DNA of 64,000 nt from Brachybacterium huguangmaarense (GCF_025725725.1 NZ_CP107020.1:496001-560000); one strand, 5' to 3'. Positions 9,854 through 22,202 are shown, counted from the first letter of the stretch. Notes: generated by a model not told the origin, from the sequence alone. A program made the numbers and translations.

Positions 9854-9934
9854 CCGTCGGAGTGTAGGAGCTCGACCTCGACGGGGCGTGAGGGGCGCGG
9901 GGTGGGGCGGCGGGGCGTGCGCGGAGCGGCGGCG

Positions 9935-10090
9935 GAGCGGGGAGGTGGGGCGTGCGGGGAACTGCGGCGGGGCGTGCGGGGAGCGGAGTGGGGAGGTGGA
10001 GCGTGCGGGGAACTGCGGCGGAGCGGGGAGGTGGAGCGTGCGGGGAACTGCGGCGGAGCGGGGAGGTGGAGCGTGCGGGGAACTGCGGCG
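9935..10090. repeat. 35-bp tandem repeat array
   Basis: Four to five copies of a 35-bp unit (core GAGCGGGGAGGTGGAGCG then TGCGGGGAACTGCGGCG) lie at 9935-9969, 9986-10020, 10021-10055 and 10056-10090; the last two are almost identical. The array fills the space between the sulfotransferase start and the end of the DUF559 gene. Frames reading through it are repeat artefacts. Confidence 0.85.
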
Positions 10091-10129
10091 GAGCGTGCAT
10101 AGAGCGGTGTCCGCTGCCGGGACGCCGCG

Positions 10130-11678: not shown

Positions 11679-12560
11679 TCAGCCGCGCTCGAGGCGCTCC
11701 CGCTCCAGGGCGTCCAGCAGGTAGGCGCCGTAGCCGGACTTCACGAGGGGTTCGGCGCGCTCGCGCAGCTCGTCGTCGCTCAGGAAGCCCATCCGCCAGG
11801 CGACCTCCTCGGGTGCCCCGATGGACAGGCCCTGTCGCTTCTGGACCGTGCGGATGAACTCGCCCGCTGCGGCGAGGTCGTCGAAGGTGCCGGTGTCCAG
11901 CCACGCCGTGCCGCGCGTGAGGACCTCGACGTTCAGCGAGCCGTCGTCCAGGTAGGAACGGTTGAGGTCGGTGATCTCGAGCTCCCCGCGGGTCGAGGGC
12001 TTGAGCGCCTTGGCGCGCTCGACCACGGTGTCGTCATAGAAGTAGAGGCCGGGCACGGCGAGGTTGCTGCGCGGCTCGGCGGGCTTCTCCTCGAGGGAGA
12101 CCGCCTTGCCGTCTTCTCCCATCTCGACCACGCCGTACGCGGTGGGGTCGGCGACCCAGTAGCCGAACACCGCAGCACCGTCGACCTCGGTGTAGCGGCG
12201 CAGCTGGCTGCCCATGCCCTGCCCGTAGAACAGGTTGTCGCCGAGCACGAGGGCGGCCCGCTCACCGTCGAGGAACTCCTCCCCGAGCACGAACGCCTGG
12301 GCGAGGCCGTCCGGCGAGGGCTGGACGACGTACTGCAGCTCGACCCCGAAGGCGCTGCCGTCCCCGAGCACCCGCTGGAAGGCGGCCTGGTCCTGCGGGG
12401 TGGTGATGATGAGGATCTCCCGGATCCCCGCGAGCATGAGGGTGCTCAGGGGGTAGTAGATCATCGGCTTGTCGTAGACCGGCATCAGCTGCTTGGAGAC
12501 GCCGATGGTCAGGGGGTGCAGGCGCGACCCGGTGCCGCCCGCCAGAATGATTCCGCGCAT
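11679..12560 (-). CDS. rfbA: Glucose-1-phosphate thymidylyltransferase
   Basis: A 293-residue cytosolic nucleotidyltransferase that makes dTDP-glucose from dTTP and glucose-1-phosphate, the first step to dTDP-rhamnose. The N-terminus [18 protein letters not shown] holds the nucleotide signature GGTGSRLHP (8-16), followed by [18 protein letters not shown], and later [10 protein letters not shown] and [10 protein letters not shown]; these are classical RfbA motifs, and the length is normal. The start is the ATG directly before RGIILAGG. It is separated from rfbB and rfbCD by the sulfotransferase and DUF559 genes, all on the same strand. Confidence 0.95.
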
Positions 12561-12586
12561 GGGCGTCAGTATGGCAGGAAGCCTGG

Positions 12587-12662
12587 CGCCGACGTCACGT
12601 CGGGAGACCCCCGCCGACGTCACGTCGGGAGACCCCGCACCGACGTCACGGCGGGCGACCCC
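12587..12662. repeat. Three-copy tandem repeat upstream of rfbA
   Basis: Three copies of a 24-26 bp unit centred on CGACGTCACGTCGGGAGACC lie directly upstream of the rfbA start. The GACGTC core and the CGACGTCACGTCG dyad make each unit partly self-complementary, so a repeated operator is conceivable, but the third copy has diverged. Confidence 0.7.
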
Positions 12663-12725
12663 CTGCAGAAGGCGTGGACGAGACACCGGTGCCGACACGC
12701 GCAGCCCGCCGCGCACGCACGTCCC

Positions 12726-14471: not shown

Positions 14472-15803
14472 TCAGATCGCGGTGCGCACACCTGTCGACC
14501 CCTGGGCGCGCGGGGCACCGAGGGTGCGACGGCTTCGGTCAGCCCCGGGCGTCGCCGACCCGCCGCTCCGTCCGTCGACGAGCTCCTCGAGGATGCCGAC
14601 ATACCGTTCGGCGAGACGCGACCGCTCGGCCTGCTTCATGACCCAGTGCCGGCCGTCGCCGCGCGGGACGAGACGGGAGCGGTCGGCGGCGAGGCCCTCC
14701 CAGAAGTCCACGAGGGCGTCGAGGTCTCCCGGGGGCACGACGTCTCCCGCCCCCGAGGTCTCGATGATCGCGGCGCTCTCGCCGCGCAGGATCCCAGTCA
14801 CGTGACGGCCGGTCGCGAGCGCCTCGTAGAGCTTGGAGGGGATGGTCCAGTCGAAGGGCTCCCACGCGGTGAGCGAGACGATCACGGAGTCGGCCCATGC
14901 ATAGTGCTGGACGAGCTCACTGGGCGGCACCCTCCCGCTCACGATCACGGGGGCGTCGAGAGCCGCGGCGAGGTCGGCCAGGGCCCGCGCATGGGCGCCG
15001 TGCCCGATGAGGCGCACGGAGATCGGGACGCCGCGGCGTGCGAGGACGGCCGCGGCGCGCACCACGAGGTCGAGCCCCTGGGATCGCCCCAGGTTGCCGA
15101 GGTAGACGCAGCGCAGCTCGTCGTGTTCGCCCGTCGTGTGCGGCTCGAACCACGGCACCCGCGAGGTGTCGGTGCCATTGCGCACCACGTGCACGGGCTC
15201 CAGTCCGCGCTGGCGCAGGATCTCGGCGAAGGCGGCGGTGGTCGTCACGACGGCGTCGGCGCGCCGCTGCAGGGCCGTGACCCGCTCGTGGACGAACGCC
15301 TTGGCGGCCGAGACGCGGCACCCGCGCTGCGAGGCGGGCCCGACGAAGGTGACGAGGTCCGGCCAGGCGTCGCGCATCTCGACGACGAGCGGGATCCTCC
15401 ACAGGGCGGCGATCGCGTTGCCCGCGACGAGCGTCTCGACCGCGGGGGCCGTCGCCACCACGATGTCCGGGCGGAGGGCGCGCCGACCGAAGCGGGACAC
15501 CGCGCGGCACAGCGAGTCGACCGACGTCACCGCGTGGTCGAGGCTGCGGGTGAGGATGTCGCCCCGGTGGGGCAGGTAGCGGGCGCGGACCACGAGCTCC
15601 CCGGCCGGCCCGCGATCCGCAGTCCCCGGTCGGTAGCGCTCACGGTCCTCCGCGGCCACCCGGCCGGCGGGATAGTGGGGCGGGGGCGCGATCACGGCCA
15701 CGTCGTGCCCGGCCTCGTGGAGCGTGCGGACCACCGAGTTCCACCGCCGCTGCGGGGCGCCGTGCTCGGGGTGGTAGTAGTGCGACAGCAGCAGGACCCT
15801 CAC
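14472..15803 (-). CDS. GT4-type glycosyltransferase (WbuB-like)
   Basis: A 443-residue GT-B glycosyltransferase. The N-terminus (MRVLLLSHYYHPEHGAPQRR) and APPPHYP match WbuB/WcaI-like enzymes of surface polysaccharide synthesis; the C-terminal domain contains VYLGNLGRSQGLDLVV, the sugar-nucleotide contact region VSLTAWEPFDWTIPSKLYEALATG with its conserved EALA-type glutamate. The start is GTG 15803, overlapping the PRC-barrel stop by four bases (GTGA), so the two are translationally coupled. It acts at the cytoplasmic face of the membrane. Donor and acceptor are not known. Confidence 0.88.
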   Translation of the reverse strand: MRVLLLSHYYHPEHGAPQRRWNSVVRTLHEAGHDVAVIAPPPHYPAGRVAAEDRERYRPGTADRGPAGELVVRARYLPHRGDILTRSLDHAVTSVDSLCRAVSRFGRRALRPDIVVATAPAVETLVAGNAIAALWRIPLVVEMRDAWPDLVTFVGPASQRGCRVSAAKAFVHERVTALQRRADAVVTTTAAFAEILRQRGLEPVHVVRNGTDTSRVPWFEPHTTGEHDELRCVYLGNLGRSQGLDLVVRAAAVLARRGVPISVRLIGHGAHARALADLAAALDAPVIVSGRVPPSELVQHYAWADSVIVSLTAWEPFDWTIPSKLYEALATGRHVTGILRGESAAIIETSGAGDVVPPGDLDALVDFWEGLAADRSRLVPRGDGRHWVMKQAERSRLAERYVGILEELVDGRSGGSATPGADRSRRTLGAPRAQGSTGVRTAI

Positions 15804-16180
15804 GGCGCGGCCTCCGCGGCGAGCGCGCGTCGGGCCGCGGCGAGCGCGTCGGGCTCGAGGTGGGCGGTGGCCGGCGCGGCCATGGCCGTCGTGCGCACCC
15901 GGTCACGGGAGGCCGCGACGCGGACCCGGCCGGGCGCTGCCGGCGAGAGCATGTCGAGGGGGATCACGGCGTCGTGATCGGCGAAGGGACCGAGCGCGAC
16001 GCTCACGGCCGCGAGCTGCCCGGTGCGATCGACGAGGTAGACGTCGAGCACGCGACCCACGCGGCGCCCGTCCTCGTCCTCGACGGTCGCCGACGCGATC
16101 GTGCGCGGGTCGAGCGCGGGGGCGCGCGACGGGAGGCCCGGTCTCGCCGAACCGCCCACCTGCGCCGCGCCGCTGTCCAT
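15800..16180 (-). CDS. PRC-barrel domain protein
   Basis: A 126-residue protein whose middle (RTIASATVEDEDGRRVGRVL, DVYLVDRTGQLAAVSVAL, DAVIPLDMLSPAAPGRVRV) is a PRC-barrel, a small beta-barrel that binds partner proteins or RNA in RimM and photosynthetic reaction centres. The C-terminal 30 residues are Ala-rich and helical. Its ATG overlaps the stop of the upstream fusion gene by one base (TGATG), and its own stop overlaps the glycosyltransferase start, so it is made in step with both. That suggests an accessory subunit, which is an inference. Confidence 0.8.
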   Translation of the reverse strand: MDSGAAQVGGSARPGLPSRAPALDPRTIASATVEDEDGRRVGRVLDVYLVDRTGQLAAVSVALGPFADHDAVIPLDMLSPAAPGRVRVAASRDRVRTTAMAAPATAHLEPDALAAARRALAAEAAP

Positions 16181-18531
16181 CACCGCTCGAACACGACGGC
16201 CATGGGGGTCTGCTCGCGTCCCTGGCCCAGCGGGTTGTCGGCGAACTGCAGCTCGTAGTGGGTACCGCTGTGCGGGGCCGCCTTGCCCAGGGTGTTGCGG
16301 CCGATGTCGTTGGCGTCCATCACGACGGTGCCCGTGAAGGACTCCCGCCACGCCTGCGGCACGGCCGCTCGGACCACGTCGTTCAGATGCCGGGCGACGA
16401 GGTCGGGATCCTTGGGCGGCAGCTTGGCCGACACGTTGGCCGGGTAGACCGAGTACTCGGTGGGCCCGTCGATCGCGCGCACGTTGCCGCCGACGACGTG
16501 GTAGAACCAGCCCTTGCGCCGCAGCACCTTGCCGGCGGCCCCGGCCGCGGAGGCCGCGATCACACGGGGCAGACCCGCCTCCTGGATCGCGAGCTGCATC
16601 GTCACGGGGTCGCCGAGGCCGATGCCCGCGGGCGTGCGCGCCACGTAGCGCGAGAGGTTCTGGGCCCACCACGTGGGCTGGACGTCCCACACGAAGTAGG
16701 AGCGGCCCTGCATGATCGCGATGATCTTCTCGGAGATGGTGAGGTTCCAGGGCTTGCCGACGGTCGCGGCACGATGGTCCTCGGCGTCGGGGCCGTCGGC
16801 TGCGAGCTCGGCGTCGAGCGCGTCGAAGAACCCGGACACGTAGCGCGTCACCTCGGCGTCCATGTCGGAGTCCGCGGCGAACTTGCCGGTCTGCAGCGGG
16901 TAGCGCCGGGCGATCACGGGGGCGGCGGAGCGCGGGTCGCGCACCTCGAGGTCGAGCTTCTTGCCGGGGTTGGCGGCGAGCGGGGGCTTGGGCTCGGGCT
17001 CGTCGAAGCGGCCGTGGTCGTCCTGGCCCTCCCACGCGTCGTCGGTTTCGTCGGAGGCCTCGCGCGTCGGGTCGTCGACGCACTCGCGCATCCACAGCTC
17101 GAGGTTGAGCAGGCGCCAGAACACCTCGTCGCCCCCGGTGGTGCGGCCCGCGACGTGCGCCTCGAAGGCCTCGAGCACGGCACGCTGGTCGCTCCAGGGG
17201 CGACGGGCGAACTGCTCGGAGCGGAACACCTGGTGGAGGGTGCCCTTGAGCCGCGACAGCCACTCGTGCTGGTCAATGGGCGCGATCCGCTCGGGCTCGG
17301 TGGCGACGGCGCGCGGCGCGGCCAGCGGCGCGAGCGGGGCGAGCACGTCGCCGTCGGCGCCGGTGGACTGGGCGAGCACGGAGGCGACCTCGGGGTCCAC
17401 GAGCGGGAGCGCGAACGCGAGGCCGAAGCGCTCGGCGTTGCGCTGGGCGGCGACCACGGCCGCGGTGTCGCGGGCGGAGGCCGGCTCGGAGGCGAGATGG
17501 CCGGCGGCCGCGGTGTCCTCGAGGAAGGCGCGGGCCAGGAGCGCGTCGGCCGTGAGCGCGGTGCGCCCGCGCGCGGCGATCCGCTCGCGCACCGCGCCGA
17601 GCGCGGAGGCAGGAGCCGCGACGACCTCGGGGGCGGACGAGGAGCCGATGAGGCCCGCACCGCGCGGCCCGCTCGCGTCGAGCACGAGCGCCGCGGTGCC
17701 CGTCTCGTGCGCGACCTCCCGCAGAGCGCAGTAGTGGGCGTACACCCCGAGGCCGCCGAAGGGCTCGGCCTGGGTGCGCACGAGATCGCCGAGGTCCTTC
17801 TTGAAACGGTCGGTGGTGGGGCCGACGGTGCGCAGCGCGGCGCCGACGGACTCGGCCGCCACGGCGGCGCGGGAGGCGCCGCCCGTCTCGGCCGAGGAGT
17901 CCTGGGCGCGGGTCGAGCCGGCCCGCACGCGCACGGCCCGCACGGAGTCGTCATCCTGCGGTGCCGCCTCGCCGGGTGTCGCCTCGTCGGTCGTCCGCGC
18001 AGGGCGGGCGCCGTCGACGGCGGCGAGCAGGGCGGCCGAGGCGAGGTCCTCACCGAGCACGACCGTCGGCGCACCCGCGGGCGCGTCGGACAGCGACCGC
18101 TCCACGGCGCCCTGCACGGCGCGGGCGAGCGGCACCGAGGAGGCCGGGGTGGCGGGCTCCGGGCGGAGGCGGTCGACGGAGCCGTCCGCGGCGATGCGCA
18201 TCTCGTCGCCGGCGCGCAGGCGCAGGACGCCGTCGAAGAACGTGGAGGGGGCCGAGGCGACGTCGTCGCCGCGCAGATAGGCCAGGACCACGCCGTGGTG
18301 CGGCGCGATCGGGTGCCCCTGGGCGGCGAGACGGCGCACGAGCCCGCCCAGCTCGGTGCCCCAGACGACCGCGTCGTCGAGCACGGCCAGGTAGAGCTGC
18401 GGAGCGGCGGCGCCGGTGCGGGCGGCGACGATCGTGCCGTCCTCGCGGCGCTCGAGGCGAAGCCCGGCGGGCAGCTCGGGGGCGGCGTCTCCGGCAGAGC
18501 TCAGCGCGATCGAACCGGCGGTCTCGGACAT
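16180..18531 (-). CDS. Degenerate asparagine-synthetase-like / F420:glutamate-ligase-like fusion
   Basis: A 783-residue two-part protein. Residues about 1-500 follow the asparagine synthetase B order: half of a class II amidotransferase domain (AVVWGTELGGLVRRL, VLRLRAGDEMRIAADGSV), a synthetase-like core (DLVRTQAEPFGGLGVYAHYC) and the family tail VFWRLLNLELWMRECVDD. The amidotransferase N-terminal Cys is absent, the PP-loop SGGxDS is replaced by VVLGEDLAS, and the DGxGxDE loop by LDASGPRGAG, so this half is probably not catalytic. After an acidic linker, residues about 560-783 match the F420-0:glutamate ligase fold (ISEKIIAIMQGRSYF, GIGLGDPVTMQLAIQEAG, RRKGWFYHVVGG, DANDIGRNTLGK). GGAGGG precedes ATG 18531. 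No F420 biosynthesis genes are nearby; the glycosyltransferase operon hints at amino-acid decoration of a surface glycan. Confidence 0.75.
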   Translation of the reverse strand: MSETAGSIALSSAGDAAPELPAGLRLERREDGTIVAARTGAAAPQLYLAVLDDAVVWGTELGGLVRRLAAQGHPIAPHHGVVLAYLRGDDVASAPSTFFDGVLRLRAGDEMRIAADGSVDRLRPEPATPASSVPLARAVQGAVERSLSDAPAGAPTVVLGEDLASAALLAAVDGARPARTTDEATPGEAAPQDDDSVRAVRVRAGSTRAQDSSAETGGASRAAVAAESVGAALRTVGPTTDRFKKDLGDLVRTQAEPFGGLGVYAHYCALREVAHETGTAALVLDASGPRGAGLIGSSSAPEVVAAPASALGAVRERIAARGRTALTADALLARAFLEDTAAAGHLASEPASARDTAAVVAAQRNAERFGLAFALPLVDPEVASVLAQSTGADGDVLAPLAPLAAPRAVATEPERIAPIDQHEWLSRLKGTLHQVFRSEQFARRPWSDQRAVLEAFEAHVAGRTTGGDEVFWRLLNLELWMRECVDDPTREASDETDDAWEGQDDHGRFDEPEPKPPLAANPGKKLDLEVRDPRSAAPVIARRYPLQTGKFAADSDMDAEVTRYVSGFFDALDAELAADGPDAEDHRAATVGKPWNLTISEKIIAIMQGRSYFVWDVQPTWWAQNLSRYVARTPAGIGLGDPVTMQLAIQEAGLPRVIAASAAGAAGKVLRRKGWFYHVVGGNVRAIDGPTEYSVYPANVSAKLPPKDPDLVARHLNDVVRAAVPQAWRESFTGTVVMDANDIGRNTLGKAAPHSGTHYELQFADNPLGQGREQTPMAVVFER

Positions 18532-18609: not shown

Positions 18610-19383
18610 TCAGCGCAGGAGCATCTCGATCAGGCGCAGGTAGTCGGGCCCGGCGACGCCCGCGCTGCTGGGCTGCACGGCGCCGATCGTGGCCTCGCGG
18701 GTGATCAGCGGGATCCGCATGGAGATCAGCAGGCGCCCGGCCCACGCGAGGTCGAGGCCCTCGACGAGCTCGCCGCGCGCCTCGAAGGCCCGCAGCACGT
18801 GCTCGGCGATGTGCTCGTACACGCGGCGCAGCCGGATCAGGCGTAGCCGGCACGGGAAGTCGGGGGCGATGGCCTCGGTGCTCAGCACCGCGAACAGCAG
18901 CATCTCCTGGGAGTCGGTGACGAAGTCGCCCTTGACGATCTTCTCCAGCCGCTCCGTGGTGATGGTGTCGAACGTGTCGATGTGGTCGATGACGTGCTGG
19001 GCGTGGCCCTCGAGGTCGTCGATCACGGCGTCCAGGAGCGCGTCCTTGGACTTGAAGTGGTGGAGCATGCCGGGGTGGGAGATGCCCACCTTGCCGGAGA
19101 TGTCGCGCAGGCTCGTGCCGCGGTAGCCGCGCACCGCGAACAGCTCCGAGGCGGCGTCGAGGATCTCCCGCCGACGACTGCGACCGCCGACCTCCGTGGG
19201 CGCCATCTGCCCCGACACGGCGTCGAGCGTCGAGATCGCGTGCGCGATCGGGTCCATCGGCGCGACCGGCGGGGATGTCGCCTCCTGGAGCCCGAGCACG
19301 TCGCCGGCCCGGTCGCTCAGAACGGTCTCAGGAGCGGCTGGACCGGGCTCGGATCCCTCGAGGGGGCGGGGAAGTGTCGTCAT
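18610..19383 (-). CDS. TetR/AcrR-type transcriptional regulator
   Basis: A 257-residue regulator. The helix-turn-helix occupies roughly residues 70-115 (RREILDAASELFAVRGYRGT, SLRDISGKVGISHPGMLHHF), followed by a helical ligand domain. The HTH is preceded by an unusually long 65-70 residue extension; initiation at an internal ATG (MDPIAHAIS or MAPTEVGG) would give the usual length of about 215, so the start is uncertain. It lies 78 bp upstream of the fusion gene on the same strand and is the obvious candidate to control that operon. Confidence 0.85.
   Translation of the reverse strand: MTTLPRPLEGSEPGPAAPETVLSDRAGDVLGLQEATSPPVAPMDPIAHAISTLDAVSGQMAPTEVGGRSRRREILDAASELFAVRGYRGTSLRDISGKVGISHPGMLHHFKSKDALLDAVIDDLEGHAQHVIDHIDTFDTITTERLEKIVKGDFVTDSQEMLLFAVLSTEAIAPDFPCRLRLIRLRRVYEHIAEHVLRAFEARGELVEGLDLAWAGRLLISMRIPLITREATIGAVQPSSAGVAGPDYLRLIEMLLR

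Positions 19384-19458: not shown

Positions 19459-22202
<2,744 letters not shown>

Follow-up and report, generated by a model that had tools for sequence, protein, structure and literature searches.

A CofE-like ligase domain fused to a decayed AsnB-type half in Brachybacterium huguangmaarense

CofE, the glutamyl ligase of F420 biosynthesis, uses GTP to phosphorylate the carboxylate of its acceptor, which is then joined to glutamate at the amino group (PMC10861534, PMC8498797), and a long domain-swapped hairpin of the enzyme has been described as contacting F420 (PMC10861534). The evolutionary origin of CofE is considered unclear (PMC8498797), which makes any large CofE-like family outside F420 biosynthesis a natural comparison group. 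For one such homologue, chlamydial CT611, folate polyglutamylation was proposed and complemented (PMC1971073). Here we analyze FUS, a protein in which a CofE-like domain follows the remnant of a glutamine-dependent asparagine synthetase (AsnB). It is encoded in a 64,000-nucleotide stretch of the Brachybacterium huguangmaarense genome (NZ_CP107020.1:496001-560000; hereafter the window) and belongs to a widespread and apparently undescribed fusion family; the open-access literature yielded no description of an AsnB-CofE-like fusion, a search that does not exclude prior description elsewhere. We think it rather probable that FUS acts as a nucleotide-dependent ligase of the CofE type that links an amino acid and a carboxylate, the AsnB remnant serving as a non-catalytic scaffold.

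Architecture of the FUS protein

FUS (783 residues; 16180..18531, minus strand) starts at an ATG preceded by GGAGG. Direct searches with its sequence alone returned no match in Pfam, NCBIfam or PDB sequences, so that identification required relatives and structure. Relatives in the same genus are open frames of 930-990 residues with PF00733, PF13537 (GATase) and a sub-threshold PF01996. In the full-length AlphaFold model (783 residues, pLDDT 79, pTM 0.71), Foldseek matched the first half to the AsnB-type structures 7ylz (4e-11), 1ct9 (2e-7) and also 1mc1, and the second half to A. fulgidus CofE (2phn, probability 1.0). Judged by these models FUS is a real fusion of an AsnB-like and a CofE-like fold, in agreement with an earlier sequence-only reading of the locus.

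The AsnB-type half (residues 1-445; 17197..18531, minus strand) is extensively decayed. Alignment to intact relatives reveals that most of the glutaminase domain including the catalytic Cys is gone, that the SGGxDSS loop has been replaced (aligned letters TVVLGEDSA) and that DASGAGL stands in place of the DGQGADE loop, a larger decay than the loss of the Cys, SGGxDS and DGxGxDE previously claimed. Compared with asparagine synthetases as defined by TIGR01536 and PF00733, FUS retains the fold and neither the Cys glutaminase nor either synthetase loop, supporting the assignment of this half as catalytically dead on the basis of its aligned motifs. The AsnB C-terminal helix and an acidic linker follow (residues 446-520; 16972..17196, minus strand), with low model confidence for residues 493-505; W472, R473, E478 and W480 of the helix are invariant even among decayed members. 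The simplest view of the remaining shell is that it serves as a scaffold or is slowly eroding.

The CofE-like domain (residues 521-783; 16183..16971, minus strand) was modelled alone with a pLDDT of 90.6, and its only Foldseek matches at E<=0.001 were five CofE chains (2phn, 3.4e-6). Profile comparison by hhalign aligned it with canonical CofE (E 1.3e-5) with the motifs collinear. SEKIIAIMQGR (16702..16734) is the equivalent of CofE SxxxISKxxGR, IDGPT (16459..16473) and MDANDIGRN (16294..16320) correspond to the acidic sites AGIDASN and TDTxGR, and DNPLGQG (16219..16239) to the C-terminal LxxGxGGDGIPAVVVR region, all on the minus strand. In the profile alignment LPPKDPD lies opposite CofE LLPxDPD, and DNPLGQGxxTPMAVV with the C-terminal GDGIPAVVVR. 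The core motifs are near-invariant over 42 diverse relatives, bearing out the claim that the ligase motifs are intact, and the acidic motifs of the putative metal site (GIDxxN and TDTxG in CofE) have aligned equivalents in IDGPT and MDANDIG. Absent from the ligase half is a segment of ~35 residues found after TDTxGR in canonical CofE, and a helical stretch is inserted before IDGPT; the missing segment may correspond to the hairpin through which CofE contacts F420. Against the PF01996 cut-off of 25 bits FUS gave no match, fused relatives scored 17-21 and standalone members 27.8-39.3 (two of them 39.3 and 38.8), while for the F420 CofE equivalog TIGR01916 (cut-off 180.65 bits) a standalone member reached 24 bits and the fused ones gave no match. 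A PDB profile search with the domain returned nothing.

Distribution and repeated decay of the AsnB half

A scan of named genomes was combined with two surveys to trace the family, with 36 Brachybacterium genomes as the genus sample. The fusion is present in Dermabacteraceae, Actinomycetaceae, Intrasporangiaceae, Dermacoccaceae, Micrococcaceae, Glycomycetaceae and Thermomonosporaceae, and also in a Coriobacteriales metagenome-assembled genome (MAG) and in Patescibacteria. Most fusions keep all three AsnB motifs, and most genomes with an intact fusion hold no other strong PF00733 gene, or few others. Standalone ligases are found in group f19 (a second family of the same order), in Actinopolymorpha and in many Patescibacteria. 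Some Brachybacterium have no fusion gene at all; in six other sampled members of the genus both the fusion and a clear AsnB are missing.

On the ligase-domain tree the window copy groups with those of B. phenoliresistens and two further genomes (G034 and G094) in one clade, next to the intact fusions of Actinomycetaceae and the decayed ones of Dermabacter and apart from the other Brachybacterium copies, which lie beside dapA. On this tree (a quick tree with SH-aLRT support only) decay of the AsnB half requires nine changes; restricting the count to strongly supported branches leaves at least seven. Nested inside the fused AsnB clade are separate AsnBs from G094, Microlunatus, Actinopolymorpha rutila, Humibacillus and a Mycobacteriales MAG; the genomes with these nested copies also hold a decayed fusion or a standalone ligase, a pattern of duplication with complementary loss. 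In lineages whose AsnB is dead or missing the ligases are still present and unchanged, indicating that they do not depend on AsnB catalysis in cis. The most useful result, this widespread fusion family with its repeated formation of pseudoenzymes, lies outside the locus itself. The AsnB half was lost repeatedly in parallel lineages, in some of which a separate AsnB copy stayed behind, and these losses provide a clean natural series for the decay of an enzyme to a scaffold.

Several individual loci deserve mention. A separate Patescibacterial AsnB beside a CofE-like gene (L212:5997-7670) begins with MSAIVG, without the glutaminase Cys, a further loss that arose independently and outside a fusion. 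In one Patescibacterium the secY-map ribosomal protein region contains an in-frame fusion of a CofE-like domain to adenylate kinase (L216:5976-7388). In each of the eight group f19 genomes examined, the standalone gene shares 4 bases with the end of a primary sigma factor gene and faces an ATPgrasp_ST gene (L084:6269, L085:7283). A plasmid search for the family found nothing, and in a phage collection two unannotated gut contigs matched, which may be misassigned bacterial DNA. A human faecal contig deposited as 'Bacteriophage sp.' (L238, MT835656.1) encodes a CofE-like protein of 44% identity and may be Saccharibacteria DNA, not phage. The fusion protein in a Sporosarcina beigongshangi record (L181) looks Arthrobacter-like, and that record may be mislabelled or contaminated.

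Gene neighbourhoods and genome content

FUS overlaps by 1 base (TGATG, the downstream start sitting in the FUS stop) with the gene for a PRC-barrel protein (15800..16180, minus strand; PF05239, 27.5 bits), which in turn overlaps by 4 bases (GTGA) with a GT4 glycosyltransferase gene (14472..15803, minus strand; PF13579, 58.5 bits), both matches lying above the Pfam cut-offs. The three-gene overlap was correctly described by the sequence-only reading. From the neighbouring glycosyltransferase and rhamnose genes it inferred that a surface sugar or glycan precursor receives an amino acid through the ligase half, the PRC-barrel protein being a partner. Besides the overlaps themselves, that idea draws on the retention of FUS-PRC-GT4 or FUS-GT4 with a downstream rmlA across the two genera of the window's clade, where the rmlA-like nucleotidyltransferase (11679..12716, minus strand) is present in all four members. 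However, homologues of the window GT4 lie beside the fusion in no more than three of the four clade members (the window, B. phenoliresistens and G094) and PRC only in the window, G034 and B. phenoliresistens, while none of the other ~130 loci has a homologue of the window GT4 near the fusion. The glycosyltransferase linkage, set beforehand as a test, is therefore not conserved; the family moreover occurs in taxa with unrelated envelopes, Patescibacteria among them, and most relatives lie near dapA/dapB, gatCAB/asnS or elsewhere. A sugar or glycan substrate is thus unsupported and appears improbable, and a general GT4 or PRC partnership was rejected.

Within the window's clade the order ask-asd-TetR-FUS-...-rmlA is conserved as far as contigs reach, comprising a TetR-type regulator upstream of FUS (18610..19383, minus strand; 49% identity in G034 and 41% in G094) and the genes for aspartate-semialdehyde dehydrogenase and aspartokinase (asd and ask; 19459..22202, minus strand). 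Two G+C-rich tandem repeats lie further downstream. The first (12587-12663), three copies of the 25-bp unit CGCCGACGTCACGTCGGGAGACCCC, falls at the 5' end of the rmlA-like open reading frame, whose annotated start may accordingly be too far upstream, and the second is at 9882-10098 (35-bp unit, 3.2 copies).

The remaining Brachybacterium copies share the order dapB...FUS-dapA-RNase J-FtsK. Proximity to dapA/dapB in most Brachybacterium and to ask/asd in the window's clade suggests an alternative, in which the AsnB half belongs with the LtsA/AsnB enzymes that amidate meso-diaminopimelate (mDAP) in peptidoglycan, the ligase modifies the same precursor, and the ligase is all that is left in the window. 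Consistent with this, Brachybacterium peptidoglycan is of the A4-gamma type with mDAP (PMC3035206, PMC6090031), and AsnB homologues amidate mDAP (PMC8554201). Brachybacterium also has no asparaginyl-tRNA synthetase (AsnS), so that free asparagine is not needed for translation there. On the other side, intact AsnB halves pass the asparagine synthase equivalog TIGR01536 and carry DGQGADE, not the SGEGADE of the other AsnBs compared here, and outside Brachybacterium the DAP genes are not neighbours. The fusion is also the only AsnB in Arthrobacter and Sinomonas, which have a lysine-type wall. Carriers as a whole differ widely in wall type, and a correlation with peptidoglycan type was set aside for this reason. 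Taken together the mDAP role is unlikely, if less so than the glycan role.

In Patescibacteria the ligase gene is followed by gatC-gatA-gatB (L177, L175, L178) or gatC-gatA (L219), or is separated from the gat genes by the gene for AsnS (L165), with gatCAB adjoining both fused and unfused ligases. Where the fusion is absent, asnB can lie immediately upstream of the ligase (L212, L219, L220). That the two are fused in some lineages and adjacent in others points to a functional pairing of AsnB and ligase. Patescibacteria keep few biosynthetic genes, and a ligase retained there points to use for the cell.

The gene content of the window genome narrows the possibilities. Neither FbiA nor CofH/FbiC was found genome-wide and no F420 genes lie within the window; the CofD family is represented solely by yvcK, which lies between rapZ and whiA. 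There is likewise no PF00733 gene and no AsnS above cut-off, whereas GatB and FolC (324.5 bits) are present. F420 is not made and free asparagine synthesis has been lost. GatCAB transamidation is an established route to asparagine for translation, and most likely supplies it here. This combination of genes implies that the ligase works without AsnB, does not serve F420 and is not needed in place of FolC. The absence of both AsnB and AsnS speaks against a ligase that consumes asparagine supplied in cis by AsnB. The genome does retain, despite the missing FbiA and CofH/FbiC, a canonical CofE/FbiB-like gene beside a WhiB-like gene (376 residues, PF01996 156 bits; L001:1027-2154, minus strand; G000:C1:1923405-1924001), which may be a remnant of the F420 pathway or have another purpose; the earlier statement that F420 biosynthesis genes are absent thus holds for the window and, genome-wide, for FbiA and CofH/FbiC, but not for this gene.

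The same gene content bears on the two roles described for CofE and its relatives. A true CofE that glutamylates F420 would account for the fold and motifs of the C-terminal half, yet the absence of FbiA and CofH/FbiC, the failed TIGR01916 comparison, the missing segment after TDTxGR and the abundance of the family in Patescibacteria leave this scarcely credible, and an F420 role was rejected. Folate polyglutamylation is suggested by membership in the superfamily of CT611 and by the lack of full-length FolC in most Patescibacterial carriers. However, FolC is above cut-off in the window genome and in all eight actinobacterial carriers tested, and Patescibacteria without the ligase lack FolC about equally often. 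A folate role is very unlikely, and replacement of FolC was rejected for the window genome.

Proposed function and relation to known systems

In the ligase mechanism that we favor, the C-terminal half would bind a nucleotide triphosphate (GTP in CofE) and a divalent metal, the carboxylate of a non-F420 acceptor would be phosphorylated by acyl-phosphate chemistry as in CofE, and the activated carboxylate would be coupled to a small amino acid at its amino group; glutamate or a member of the aspartate family is the probable choice. The ancestral partner would have been a glutamine-dependent asparagine synthetase, either fused or encoded by a neighbouring gene. Duplication followed by complementary loss, in an order that we infer, is probable in the window lineage: the window copy would have kept the ligase, with its AsnB half reduced to a non-catalytic scaffold, and the genome would subsequently have lost the catalytic AsnB copy. 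The PRC and GT4 genes are probably co-transcribed recent neighbours, not general partners.

Selection on the two halves bears on both the ligase and the scaffold. In the window's clade dN/dS is 0.6-0.7 for the N-terminal half and ~0.25 for the C-terminal half, compared with 0.27 and 0.06 in Dermabacter, although dS values are rough in such high-GC genes. The decayed AsnB half with its high ratio, together with the complete absence of the gene from some Brachybacterium, might indicate a dying gene, with the entire protein on its way out and no longer functional. That view is hard to sustain, and we give it little weight, given the strong constraint on the C-terminal half, motifs that are invariant in every decayed lineage, a reading frame that is intact (open over the 445 codons of the N-terminal half) and standalone ligases that persist without AsnB.

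The roughness of dS is one of several points that weigh against a scaffolded ligase. The weak constraint on the N-terminal half may reflect slow neutral decay instead of a scaffold, the G094 protein (407 residues) having shed most of its AsnB half; the scaffold role put forward by the sequence-only reading is plausible, with neutral erosion as its competitor. Similarity to CofE structures is moderate (TM ~0.5, 12% identity), so that the nucleotide and chemistry of the ligase half could differ. The association with asnB and gatCAB in Patescibacteria comes from few loci, partly of one lineage. Overall the interpretation given by the sequence-only reading is partly supported, its anatomy being right in every testable detail.

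For the family at large, the evidence is about evenly balanced on whether these CofE-type ligases, which extend from Patescibacteria to Actinomycetota and would ancestrally have been associated with asparagine synthetase and GatCAB, make an amide-linked metabolite that has nothing to do with F420 or folate, their fused AsnB having repeatedly become a pseudoenzyme scaffold. Behind this large family outside the F420 pathway there is probably an amide-bonded metabolite that has yet to be described.

Among known systems, the C-terminal half of FUS shares its fold with the N-terminal domain of CofE/FbiB (PF01996; PDB 2PHN, 7ULD), along with the collinear SxxxISKxxGR, GIDxxN, LLPxDPD, TDTxGR and C-terminal motifs and, presumably, by analogy, nucleotide- and metal-dependent amide formation. 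It differs in its low identity, the altered segments flanking the acidic motifs, the failure in TIGR01916 and a host without an F420 pathway. The N-terminal half shares the fold of glutamine-dependent asparagine synthetases (TIGR01536; E. coli AsnB, 1CT9; TsnB9, 7YLZ) but has lost most of the glutaminase domain, both synthetase loops and any PF00733 match. The beta-lactam and carbapenam synthetases (1MC1, 1Q15) likewise combine an AsnB fold with a dead glutaminase, but they retain the active adenylating synthetase site that FUS has lost as well. Chlamydial FolC2 (CT611, COG1478) is, like FUS, a CofE homologue in an organism without F420; FolC2, however, clusters with folate genes and replaces FolC, whereas the host of FUS has a FolC of its own.

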